Source of the DNA: Reinekea forsetii
Lineage (GTDB): Bacteria; Pseudomonadota; Gammaproteobacteria; Pseudomonadales; Natronospirillaceae
Assembly: GCF_018860385.1 (NCBI RefSeq)
Contig: NZ_JAHKPH010000008.1
Location: 124,001-188,000 of the forward strand
Direction of reading: 5' to 3'
Length of the DNA: 64,000 nucleotides
The position numbers and the translations under genes were made by a program. The notes beneath the pieces are model-generated. The model saw only the letters and a program-made list of their open reading frames with translations. It was not told the DNA's origin and did no database searches. Of the stretch, positions 19,193-47,207 are shown in pieces. Each line of letters begins with the position of its first letter. The stretch's first letter is position 1.

Positions 19193-19927
19193 TCACTCTT
19201 TAATTTTAATTTGATAGCTGAGTCGAAGGGTGTCATTAATACCTAAAGAAAAGATCTGCCATTTAATATAGCGTATGTCTTTTGCTTCAATTTCAGTATC
19301 TGGCGGAAAATAAGTCTCGCCAGTCACGGAGATGCTGTAAAACCCTCGTTCAGAATCCAAGGTGACCGAATCTTTTAAAAATTCAACAGGACCCGTTGGG
19401 AGGGTATTCACCATTTCAACTTCTTTGACCGATTCATCACTCTTATTCGTCGCGGTCACCTCTATCTCGATTAAATCACCAGGATTAGCTTCTTGTGTGA
19501 TAGATTTTAGATAGGCATTTGAGGCCGCATCGAACTCAAGTAGGTAGTATCGTTCGGTGACTTCAATGACATTCACCTTCACTGTGTCGGGGTCATCTGT
19601 TGGAGGCGTTTGTTCCGTGGGCACTATTTCTTCGGTATTGAATTTAAAAACATCAGGAAGAGCCGCCTCTGGCATGTTTGGAACAGCCATCCCCGTATTG
19701 GTATTGGCAGAAGTATCTGACTTCGATTGTACGGATACATCATCAAGATCATCTAATTCTAAAACTTCACCATCAATCTCTAAAATTTCAATCACGTCAC
19801 CGTCGTCGGCCTGAACAGGCATACAAAATACAGTGGCTATTATAAATAGCGTTGAAAATGCACTCAGGCGTTTGTTTGAGCGCAGAGCCATATTATTTAA
19901 TAATAATTTTAGATTAAAAGTTTTCAA
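19193..19927 (-). CDS. Exported protein with a C-terminal DUF11-like repeat domain
   Basis: A 244-residue protein with a signal peptide (LSAFSTLFIIATVFCMPVQADD). An acidic, Pro/Thr-rich linker (about 45-115) precedes a beta-rich domain with NPGDLIEIEVTATNKSDESV and LPTGPVEFL. That resembles the DUF11 / TIGR01451 conserved repeat found in surface proteins. Met 13 (MALRSNKRL) is an alternative start closer to the signal peptide. It appears to be a single gene: rdgC lies 71 nt upstream on the same strand. Its role is not known; a cell-surface or periplasmic location is inferred. Confidence 0.7.
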   Translation of the reverse strand: MKTFNLKLLLNNMALRSNKRLSAFSTLFIIATVFCMPVQADDGDVIEILEIDGEVLELDDLDDVSVQSKSDTSANTNTGMAVPNMPEAALPDVFKFNTEEIVPTEQTPPTDDPDTVKVNVIEVTERYYLLEFDAASNAYLKSITQEANPGDLIEIEVTATNKSDESVKEVEMVNTLPTGPVEFLKDSVTLDSERGFYSISVTGETYFPPDTEIEAKDIRYIKWQIFSLGINDTLRLSYQIKIKE

Positions 19928-44973: not shown

Positions 44974-46467
44974 ATGAAAATTCGTACGCGTATTGCGCCT
45001 TCACCAACGGGTGACCCTCATGTAGGCACGGCTTACATTGCTTTATTCAATAAGGTTTTTGCGCAAAGCCAAGGCGGCGAATTCATACTTCGTATTGAAG
45101 ATACAGACCAGGCCCGTTCTACTCCAGAATCGGAGCAAGCCATTCTCGATAGCTTAAAGTGGCTGGGATTAAACTGGGCAGAAGGTCCTGATGTCGGTGG
45201 AGAGTATGGGCCGTATCGACAGTCTGATCGTAAAGATATCTACAAAAAATACACTCAACAATTGGTCGATGAAGGTCATGCATTCCCTTGTTTCTGTACA
45301 TCTGAGCGTTTAGATGCGTTGCGTGAAGAGCAGCGAGAAGCCGGTACCGACATAGGGTACGATGGTCATTGCATGCACCTAGACGCATCGGAAGTCGAAG
45401 ACAAAATAGCCGCTGGCGAAAGCCACGTTATTCGCATGAAGGTACCAGACGAGGGCGTTTGTGTTGTCGATGATCTGTTACGCGGTAAAGTTGAAATCGA
45501 CTGGAAACAGATCGACATGCAAGTGTTGATGAAGTCTGATGGTTTGCCAACCTACCATTTAGCCAGTGTAGTCGATGATCATCTGATGGAAATCAGCCAC
45601 ATCATGCGTGGTGAAGAATGGATTTCATCAACGCCTAAGCAGATTGCTTTATATCAGTACTTTAATTGGCAGCCACCCGTGTATGTGCATTTACCGCTAT
45701 TACGCAACGCCGATAAATCTAAGTTAAGCAAACGAAAAAACCCAACTTCAATTACTTACTATCGTGAGTTGGGTATTTTGCCAGAGGCTTTGGTTAATTT
45801 TTTAGGCATGATGGGTTGGACGCAGCCAGACGGTGCGGAAATATTCACCGTAGATGACATGGCAGCTACCTTTGATGTTTCGCGTATTTCTTTAGGTGGA
45901 CCGGTTTTTGACCAAGAAAAATTGAATTGGTTAAATGGTAAGTACCTGCGTGAACTTCACACGCCTGAGCAGTTGTTGCAAAAACTCGTAGATTGGAAGT
46001 TTAATGCTGAGTTTGCAACGCAATTAATGCCGTTAGCGCAAACCCGTGCTGAAACTCTAGGCGATATTGCTCCGCTGTTAAGCTTCTTCTTTGCGGGCAA
46101 CCCTGCTATTACTGAATCGAGCTTTGATGGTTTTAAGTTAGAAGGTGACGAGCTTAAACGCGTATTACAGTTGATCCTTTGGAAGCTGGAGGCGCAGCGG
46201 CATTGGGAAAAAGACAATATTTTCGCCGATGTTAAGACCATAGCTGAACATTGCGAGCTTAAGTTTAAAGATGTGAATGCACCTTTATTCGTGGCTATTA
46301 CGGGTTCAACGGCTTCTGTTTCGGTCATGGATGCCATGGCTATTCTAGGGCCCGATATGACCCGTGGTCGTATTCGCCATGCGCTTACTGTTTTAGGTGG
46401 GTTGGGCAAGAAGAAGCTTAAGTCTCTAGACAAAGAGTTTCGTCAAATCGCTAATCCGTTAGATTAA
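44974..46467 (+). CDS. gltX: Glutamyl-tRNA synthetase
   Basis: Class I aminoacyl-tRNA synthetase. The HIGH-type motif HVGT is at residues 16-19 in [16 protein letters not shown], and the KMSKS-type motif is [20 protein letters not shown] binds substrate. A zinc-site-like cluster CFCTSERL ... CMH is retained in the middle. It has 497 residues. It is followed at 81 nt by a stable RNA promoter and tRNA-Ala. Confidence 0.95.
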
Positions 46468-46501: not shown

Positions 46502-46530
46502 TTGACAGGACGGGCGGCAATTATTAATAT
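46502..46530 (+). promoter_or_regulatory. tRNA-Ala promoter
   Basis: A perfect -35 TTGACA (46502-46507), 17-nt spacer and TAATAT (46525-46530), followed at once by a GC-rich CCCGCC discriminator typical of stringently controlled stable RNA genes. GACAGGACGGG (46504-46514) and CCCGCCTGTC (46531-46540) form an inverted repeat with one bulge that encloses the -10. Confidence 0.75.
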
Positions 46531-46548: not shown

Positions 46549-46624
46549 GGGGCTATAGCTCAGCTGGGAGAGCGCCTGCATGGCATGCAGGAGGTCTGCG
46601 GTTCGATCCCGCATAGCTCCACCA
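46549..46624 (+). tRNA. tRNA-Ala (anticodon GGC)
   Basis: 76 nt including an encoded CCA. The acceptor GGGGCTA pairs with TAGCTCC (one G-T). The anticodon stem CCTGC/GCAGG holds loop ATGGCAT, anticodon GGC. T-loop TTCGATC is standard. The last 17 nt recur twice downstream. Confidence 0.97.
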
Positions 46625-46632
46625 AATTCTAA

Positions 46633-46660
46633 AAGCACGTAATTAATACGTGCTTTTTTT
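46633..46660 (+). terminator. Terminator 1 after tRNA-Ala
   Basis: 9-bp stem AAGCACGTA / TACGTGCTT with loop ATTAA, then a T-run. It is the first of three near-identical hairpins, one per 116-bp repeat. Confidence 0.9.
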
Positions 46661-46732
46661 ATGCCTAGAAGAAAGTCGACAGCGGGATCGAACCTAATCG
46701 GGTTCGTTCGGAATGCCGCACCACCCGCATAG
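46661..46732 (+). other. Possible 23-codon ORF in repeat copy 1
   Basis: ATG directly after the terminator T-run, reading MPRRKSTAGSNLIGFVR and ending in NAAPPA; its stop lies inside the repeated tRNA tail. It is basic at the N terminus. No ribosome site is visible, and the three differences from the copy at 46777 all change residues, so coding is unproven. Confidence 0.15.
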
Positions 46733-46748
46733 CTCCACCAAATTCTAA

Positions 46749-46776
46749 AAGCACGTATTTATTACGTGCTTTTTTT
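46749..46776 (+). terminator. Terminator 2 in the tRNA-Ala repeat tract
   Basis: Same 9-bp stem as terminator 1 with loop TTTAT and a T-run. The stem is unchanged while the loop differs, as expected if the hairpin is under selection, although the sample is very small. Confidence 0.8.
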
Positions 46777-46848
46777 ATGCCTAGAAGAAAGTTGAAAGCG
46801 GGATCGAACCTAGTCGGGTTCGTTCGGAATGCCGCACCACCCGCATAG
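46777..46848 (+). other. Possible 23-codon ORF in repeat copy 2
   Basis: Same frame as at 46661, reading MPRRKLKAGSNLVGFVR then NAAPPA. Compared with copy 1 the changes are S to L, T to K and I to V. No ribosome site is visible. Confidence 0.15.
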
Positions 46849-46864
46849 CTCCACCAAATTTAAG

Positions 46865-46892
46865 AAGCACGTATTCATTACGTGCTTTTTTT
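46865..46892 (+). terminator. Terminator 3 in the tRNA-Ala repeat tract
   Basis: Same 9-bp stem with loop TTCAT and a T-run of seven. After this hairpin the 116-bp repeat loses similarity. Confidence 0.8.
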
Positions 46893-46915
46893 ATGCCTAA
46901 AAACCAGCGCCAAAC

Positions 46916-47133
46916 TCGCTTTGATGGCTGGCTTTAGCTCCACGGGTCGCTGTTCGTGCATCCTGCACCGCTCAACTTCGCCATCCATGGCTCAGATGCC
47001 CGCTCCACTAAAGCCACCCACCAAAGCTAATTTCACTGGGTTAAGTAGGTGTGTTCGAAGCAAAGCGAAGACGCGACCATTCTGGCATCAAGCTTCGCTT
47101 TGATGGCTGGCTTTAGCTCCACGGGTCGCTGTT
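46916..47133. repeat. Non-coding repeat element with 39-bp terminal direct repeats
   Basis: An identical 39-nt sequence beginning TCGCTTTGATGGCTGGCTTT occurs at 46916-46954 and 47095-47133. Between them are TGGCTTTAG/CTAAAGCCA inverted copies and a perfect CAAAGCGAAG (47061-47070) / CTTCGCTTTG (47093-47102) hairpin. An open frame through it (from 46882) looks like the spurious short proteins produced by dispersed intergenic repeats. No transposase is present. It is probably a member of a dispersed non-coding repeat family (inference). Confidence 0.6.
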
Positions 47134-47207
47134 TGTAAATCTGGTAATGCTAAAGTTACCTTGCGAAGCTAATTCCTTCGACGATTGCTAGTCAGTTGGT
47201 GAAAGTT

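Follow-up and report, generated by a model that had tools for sequence, protein, structure and literature searches.

Candidate rtT-like trailer units in tandem behind tRNA-Ala of Reinekea forsetii, and a similar plan behind other tRNA genes

Why should the 3' end of a tRNA be repeated, at a fixed distance, behind the gene that encodes it? The question arises at one locus in a 64,000-nt stretch of the Reinekea forsetii genome (the window; its genome is referred to below as G000), where a tRNA-Ala(GGC) gene is placed between gltX (44974-46467) and pyrB (from 47243), both identified by their Pfam families. The final 17 nt of the tRNA, CCCGCATAGCTCCACCA at 46608, return at 46724 and 46840 with a spacing of exactly 116 bp, and copy 2 departs from copy 1 at 5 of the 116 positions (96% identity), both as a preliminary description of the locus had reported. 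TRF places the array at 46608-46899, with 2.5 copies and a score of 526. Given the length of the 17-mer, its exact recurrence twice more within 250 bp can be taken as far beyond chance. The features of the locus are as follows.

46502..46530, + strand: promoter-like hexamers of the tRNA-Ala gene, TTGACA-17-TAATAT (10/12 consensus matches)
46549..46624, + strand: tRNA-Ala(GGC) with encoded CCA, the repeated tail being 46608-46624 (ARAGORN, Rfam)
46625..46740, + strand: unit 1, 116 bp, from the base after the tRNA CCA through the end of tail copy 1 (sequence, TRF)
46633..46655, + strand: terminator-like hairpin 1, 9 bp with loop ATTAA, then a T run (read from the sequence and folded; the scanner did not flag it)
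46682..46694, + strand: antisense block GCGGGATCGAACC, the reverse complement of the T-arm at 46600-46612 (inverted-copy search, specificity test)
46701..46706, + strand: sense copy of the T-arm 5' side, GGTTCG, the predicted P2 partner of 46689-46694 (folding, alignment)
46709..46723, + strand: P3 hairpin CGG-AATG-CCG with C and ACCA after it, an insertion at the point where the T-loop would otherwise run on (motif, covariation tests)
46724..46740, + strand: tail copy 1, 17/17, whose CCCGC is the predicted P1 partner of GCGGG at 46682-46686 (sequence, folding)
46741..46856, + strand: unit 2, with terminator-like hairpin 46749-46771, antisense block 46798-46810, P3 and ACCA 46825-46839, and tail copy 2 46840-46856
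46857..46899, + strand: partial third trailer with terminator-like hairpin 46865-46887, followed by no third core or tail

The preliminary description had assigned each unit the same terminator stem with a different loop. A 9-bp stem, AAGCACGTA/TACGTGCTT, does follow each of the three tails, with differing loops (ATTAA, TTTAT and TTCAT) and then a run of seven T; as terminators the hairpins are less secure, since a consensus terminator scanner flagged none of the three on the + strand and picked up solely the reverse reading of the third, we think because A-T pairs lengthen the stem into the T run. What had been overlooked is a 13-nt inverted copy of the T-arm in each full unit, GCGGGATCGAACC at 46682-46694 and again at 46798-46810. 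This sequence has three exact matches including the tRNA itself, against a chance mean of 0.07, and three or more were obtained in 1 of 100 shuffles.

Several other repeats were observed near the array or elsewhere in the sequences examined. Between the array and pyrB (46912-47157) lies a palindromic repeat of dispersed type, with 63-nt direct copies at 46916 and 47095 and an inverted partner at 47008, and at the same place G003, a genome listed as the same species, has a different, similar-looking palindromic stretch. A terminator-like hairpin at another locus of the window genome (L005 1501-1541, corresponding to G000:C16:462128-462168) has GCTTTTTTTATGCCTA in common with the array and the second Gly trailer has GGCTTTTTTTATGCCTG, raising the question of whether one terminator sequence serves several genes. 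A 21-bp tandem repeat of two copies is found at 19750-19790.

The array behind tRNA-Ala(GGC) is present in G000, G003 and G004 of the same genus, and also in G005, behind gltX, with tail copies that lack 3 nt. The junction pattern identified one locus in a collection of named genomes, in R. marinisedimentorum DSM 15388, and this corresponds to the G004 locus. In G008, which belongs to another genus, an array follows a tRNA reading Ala(TGC), and the upstream frame was recognised by eye as the end of GltX. Ala units behind gltX are thereby found in four species of two genera (G000/G003, G004, G005 and G008), while the Reinekea genomes G001, G002 and G006 have tRNA-Ala(GGC) behind gltX with no array. 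Random copy number between strains, which had been proposed as a mark of passive duplication, was not seen at this locus: the four array-bearing Reinekea genomes, two of which are of one species, have two units each, G008 has three, and the three other Reinekea genomes have none. Units resemble each other more within one genome than between genomes. A single short unit, in which the antisense block is absent, lies behind a tRNA-Ala(TGC) of G002, seemingly in an rRNA spacer. At the G008 locus (L015 1321-1782) the tRNA behind gltX is Ala(TGC), yet the tail copies (CCCGCTTA...) resemble the Ala(GGC) tails of G001, G002 and G005; an anticodon change or gene conversion is a possible explanation.

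Tail copies are not confined to tRNA-Ala. Among the 45 tRNA genes scanned in the window genome, exact tail copies without a whole tRNA lie behind Val(GAC), Asp(GTC), Gly(GCC), Arg(TCG) and Ala, and degenerate copies (13/17) with a 134-bp period lie behind Met(CAT). Scored at 14 or more of 17 positions within 600 nt, an own-tail copy was detected behind at least 25 of 165 tRNAs in G000, G002, G004 and G008; the tails of other tRNAs from the same genome fitted in 10 of 4559 tests. The scan covered 41 of 48 tRNAs in each of G002 and G004 and 38 of 45 in G008, with less than 200 nt of downstream sequence for some G000 tRNAs near contig ends. Because it is ungapped it misses, for example, the G005 Ala array with its 3-nt deletion, and the own-tail counts are lower bounds. 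Inverted tail copies were found downstream of none of the 165 tRNAs. Most tail copies start in or near the T-loop, and in the Met units the copied part starts past the T-stem. The Ala array is no isolated duplication, then, but belongs to a broader, conserved family whose units stand behind many different tRNAs.

Copy number ranges from 0 up to the 11 Asp cores of G002. In the tRNA-Val/Asp operon of G002 (L169), 11 near-identical Asp cores stand about 119 bp apart behind four tRNA-Asp genes, and with their several tail-copy versions they offer a good case for concerted evolution. A first Asp-core pattern was too strict and recovered G002 only. A covariance model built from tail-less Asp cores, searched over 390 genomes of the order with strict filters by which weak matches are lost, matched in eight genomes, six of them Reinekea, with no match in Reinekea G006. 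The two matches outside Reinekea come from one other family and both lie behind tRNA-Gly with tail copies: in G371 these stand at 50, 155 and 237 nt and match at 17, 16 and 17 of 17 positions, and in G122, where the contig ends within the tRNA-Gly and the gene was identified by eye, the tail copy has one change.

The parallel drawn in the preliminary description was with rtT, known chiefly as a curiosity of the E. coli tyrT operon (1991). Similarly to the E. coli repeats, the Ala units begin directly behind the tRNA on the same strand (from 46625, the base after CCA), occur in tandem, carry inserted hairpins and end in the tail of the upstream tRNA through to CCA (17/17 at 46724 and 46840). 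In E. coli an upstream antisense stretch pairs with the tail copy over 10 bp (GGGGAAGGAT/ATCCTTCCCC), against the 5 bp predicted for the window unit, and the annotated rttR RNA of tyrT-tyrV terminates at the CCA of a tail copy. The E. coli units differ in their tRNA (Tyr), 178-bp spacing, longer P1 and other hairpins, and have no run of five T. The likeness extends to tail copy, antisense block and hairpins and stops at the family model: Rfam RtT (RF00391) gave no match at E<=5 in eight Reinekea/G008 loci (L028, L030, L015, L058, L059, L066, L067 and L070), while four E. coli units in L079 score 132.9-137.5 bits against a gathering cut-off of 45, and we accordingly call the Reinekea units rtT-like and not members of RtT. 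The antisense block within the rtT units of L079 might itself bear on pairing or read mapping in E. coli.

RtT units in other genomes follow the same rule of position. RF00391 matched in at least 50 of 274 gammaproteobacterial genomes at E<=0.001 (18 above the cut-off; strict filters, with weak matches lost), and among 14 control genomes in E. coli only. Of 30 such loci checked, 24 have a same-strand tRNA within 80 nt upstream, and 21 of these 24 matches end in that tRNA's own tail (at least 15/17; 17 exact), the tRNAs being Tyr, Ser and Gln; the six loci without an upstream tRNA include L096, which overlaps its tRNA, and L086 and L100, which lie near contig ends. Compared with the Ala units, the RtT units behind Ser, Gln and Tyr have a longer P1, a complementary stretch placed mostly 81-112 nt before the tail and no hairpin-RCCA motif (0 of 23 arrays, E. 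coli included). One paper has RtT RNAs set free in the course of tRNA processing and acting on the stringent response (PMC4986893, citing Bosl and Kersten, 1991), and derives them from many tRNA operons. A second paper handles RtT as a structured RNA and gives covariation support for it (PMC7657543). The 3' external transcribed spacer of leuZ, a tRNA trailer described as a functional RNA (an sRNA sponge), offers a further likeness. We know of no tail copies or antisense block in the leuZ spacer.

What these arrays tend to have in common is layout and not sequence: the reverse complement of the host T-arm or acceptor strand is followed by a loop, the sense 5' strand of the T-arm, inserted hairpins and the tail copy to CCA. 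Taking the first unit of each of 43 arrays (74 units, with the 13/17 Met array of G000 added by hand), the mean of the longest antisense match is 8.79 nt with the own tRNA and 6.43 with permuted tRNAs; for the sense T-arm strand the values are 5.91 and 5.05, and in either case 0 of 20000 permutations come out as high. In 25 of the 43 arrays no dissimilar tRNA does as well as the own one; the other 18, which include the Pro and Met arrays of G002 and the Glu and Pro arrays of G004, fail this individual test. Such specificity for the own tRNA implies that units do not hop unchanged between tRNAs. In counts made with no foreign-tail control, a tail copy has a complementary upstream stretch with a score of at least 6 in 31 of 43 arrays, the score being 9-16 in 13 of 22 RtT arrays and 10 in E. 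coli. When tRNA and unit were folded together, pairing between T-arm and antisense block came to 11.87 versus 3.09 expected pairs.

An acceptor swap, in which the 5' acceptor strand of the tRNA pairs with the tail copy, was considered as well. It appeared in the foldings of 42 of 43 arrays; shuffling the unit interior still left the copy ahead in 325 of 344 cases, and substitutions in the acceptor part of the copy break that pairing in 10 of 15 rows, so the foldings provide no evidence for it, and of the pairings between tRNA and unit only that of T-arm with antisense stands up. Tail-copy substitutions, counted over the 42 distinct own/copy combinations that all units provide, show no concentration in any part of the tail (15/252, 15/294 and 10/168 sites), the acceptor part being changed as often as elsewhere.

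Folded with RNAfold, the Ala units of G000, G003 and G004 give a closing helix P1 with P2 and P3 inside it. The predicted form is a three-way junction in which the antisense block would pair with the tail copy (P1) and with the sense T-arm strand (P2), while P3 would be the hairpin with its ACCA, followed by an open strand to CCA. A P1 enclosing other helices was also obtained for the Arg unit of G000 and most E. coli units; no P1 was obtained in the Asp, Gly, Val, Met or G008 Ala units, and the Asp, Gly, Val and G008 Ala units have a P2-like helix. The Ala P1 is short, at 3-5 bp (5 bp predicted in the window unit versus 10 bp in E. coli), in G008 it has lost its outer counted pair, and G005 has one broken P2 pair. 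The fold energy of the window core is mildly unusual as RNA (z -1.33, 19/200 shuffles as good) and slightly more so as DNA (z -2.14, 5/200 shuffles as good).

In an alignment of 11 Ala units, with identity taken on one unit per species, the sense strand GGTTCG is 100% identical, the antisense GGGATCGAACC 95%, ACCA plus CCCG with the last hairpin base 92%; identity then falls from 80% in the remaining tail and 65% in the P3 hairpin to 54% in trailer and terminator, 39% in the P2 loop and 28% in the spacer. The 70 nt upstream of tRNA-Ala are 42% identical across these species. P3 varies in sequence with its pairing retained. In 20 P3 hairpins of Ala, Asp, Gly and Met units from eight genomes there are 17 cells with two-sided changes, a number reached in 0 of 500 shuffles, in a set picked by eye, for which the test leans towards structure; no Val, Arg, Glu or Reinekea Gly units entered it, and neither did the Pro units, whose stems have 3 bp. 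The same hairpins contain no G-U pair in 80 cells, which is odd for an RNA helix. The 11 Ala units taken by themselves give six two-sided cells (0/500 shuffles), and 13 Asp units give three (9/500), these 13 being drawn from 19 cores of which the other six are identical in sequence to rows kept.

The hairpin followed by RCCA was found in 8 of the 20 Reinekea/G008 arrays, where shuffling predicts 0.01, and in 0 of 23 RtT and E. coli arrays, counts that are descriptive since the motif was widened after the stems were known; restricted to a 3-bp stem, it occurs in 2 of 43 arrays. Among 78 tRNA genes without a tail copy the motif appears once, behind tRNA-Met at L129, in a unit with a partly changed tail. 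The module has the look of a minimal RNase P substrate.

The explanation that we favour, and to which we give an even chance, is that the Ala array consists of two rtT-like tRNA trailer units, structured and released as small RNAs from read-through transcripts. By sequence, each unit combines a tail copy, an antisense to its own tRNA and a hairpin-ACCA module between the two tRNA-derived segments; the core has been kept in both genera, P3 showing compensatory changes, and units of other sequence and similar plan stand behind other tRNAs. Some polymerases would read through the first terminator, and tRNA-processing enzymes would cut the resulting transcript and release a structured RNA with a tRNA-like 3' end, by analogy with what is reported for E. 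coli rtT RNA; the hairpin-RCCA module, as an RNase P substrate, would separate the units. Tail-tail recombination may create the tandem copies and even them out. A bolder form of the idea, which we consider unlikely as a whole, is that units behind many tRNAs are tRNA-specific antisense trailers: the read-through RNA would switch between a closed form, with the antisense held by its own tail copy and sense strand, and a form with the antisense on the tRNA T-arm, controlling the maturation of that tRNA, with rtT as one example.

Among the alternatives, a DNA-level element is the strongest, and we regard it, too, as unlikely. Tiny tRNA-anchored sites, resembling attachment sites or single-strand hairpins, would copy or recombine at the T-loop or CCA, and the structure would serve DNA recombination. 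P4-type integrases cross over at the tRNA T-loop, and tRNA-targeted att duplications leave a displaced tRNA 3' end from T-loop to CCA; most tail copies do begin in or near the T-loop, whereas the Met copies start past the T-stem. The Ala array differs from att duplications in that its tails are 116 bp apart, with antisense to the own tRNA in the units. A mobile-element test found 99 bp between tails, too short for a gene, and no integrase or cargo; the flanking genes tested (GAPDH-like, gltX, pyrB and pyrI) include no integrases, the array (46625-46899) has no match in plasmid and phage collections, and the junction pattern occurs in 0 viral contigs. Patchy presence among genomes would suit such an element, while the persistence of orthologous arrays across genera and the specificity of each antisense for its own tRNA would not. 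Two structural observations remain in its favour: the core folds better than shuffles as single-stranded DNA, and the two-sided P3 changes are all Watson-Crick.

Unlikely as well, in our estimate, and slightly more so, is a neutral tandem duplication of tail and trailer in which functionless units are kept alike by gene conversion. The closer likeness of units within genomes, the range from 0 to 11 cores, the three Reinekea genomes without an Ala array and the even spread of tail-copy substitutions are all as it would predict. Simple duplication makes no inverted copy of the T-arm, however, and conservation of the antisense and sense strands (95-100% over four species) against spacer and promoter region (28% and 42%), the compensatory P3 changes and the repetition of the plan at unrelated tRNAs argue further against it. 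A terminator cassette insulating pyrB from the strong tRNA promoter is very improbable, for although a stem of its own and a T run accompany each of the 11 Ala units in four species, with stem sequences that differ by species, the earlier notion of a terminator per unit fails class-wide (the Asp and Arg units of the window genome, like those of E. coli, have no run of five T), the terminator is among the less conserved parts (54% versus 92-100% for the best kept), and the tail, antisense and P3 would be left unexplained.

In the literature, searched mainly where openly available, we found no description of tail-copy units with own-tRNA antisense behind many tRNAs, or of the hairpin-RCCA variant, which escapes Rfam; given the paper on RtT RNAs from many operons, some of this generality may already be known. 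The comparison names base pairs for mutation, and tail copies and antisense stretches of this kind can mislead when reads from tRNAs, or antisense RNAs, are mapped. If the units do recur behind Ala, Asp, Gly, Arg, Met, Val, Tyr, Ser and Gln tRNAs, they would form a general class of tRNA trailers, and should the antisense-trailer switch prove true, rtT would be one example of a general system of tRNA autoregulation.
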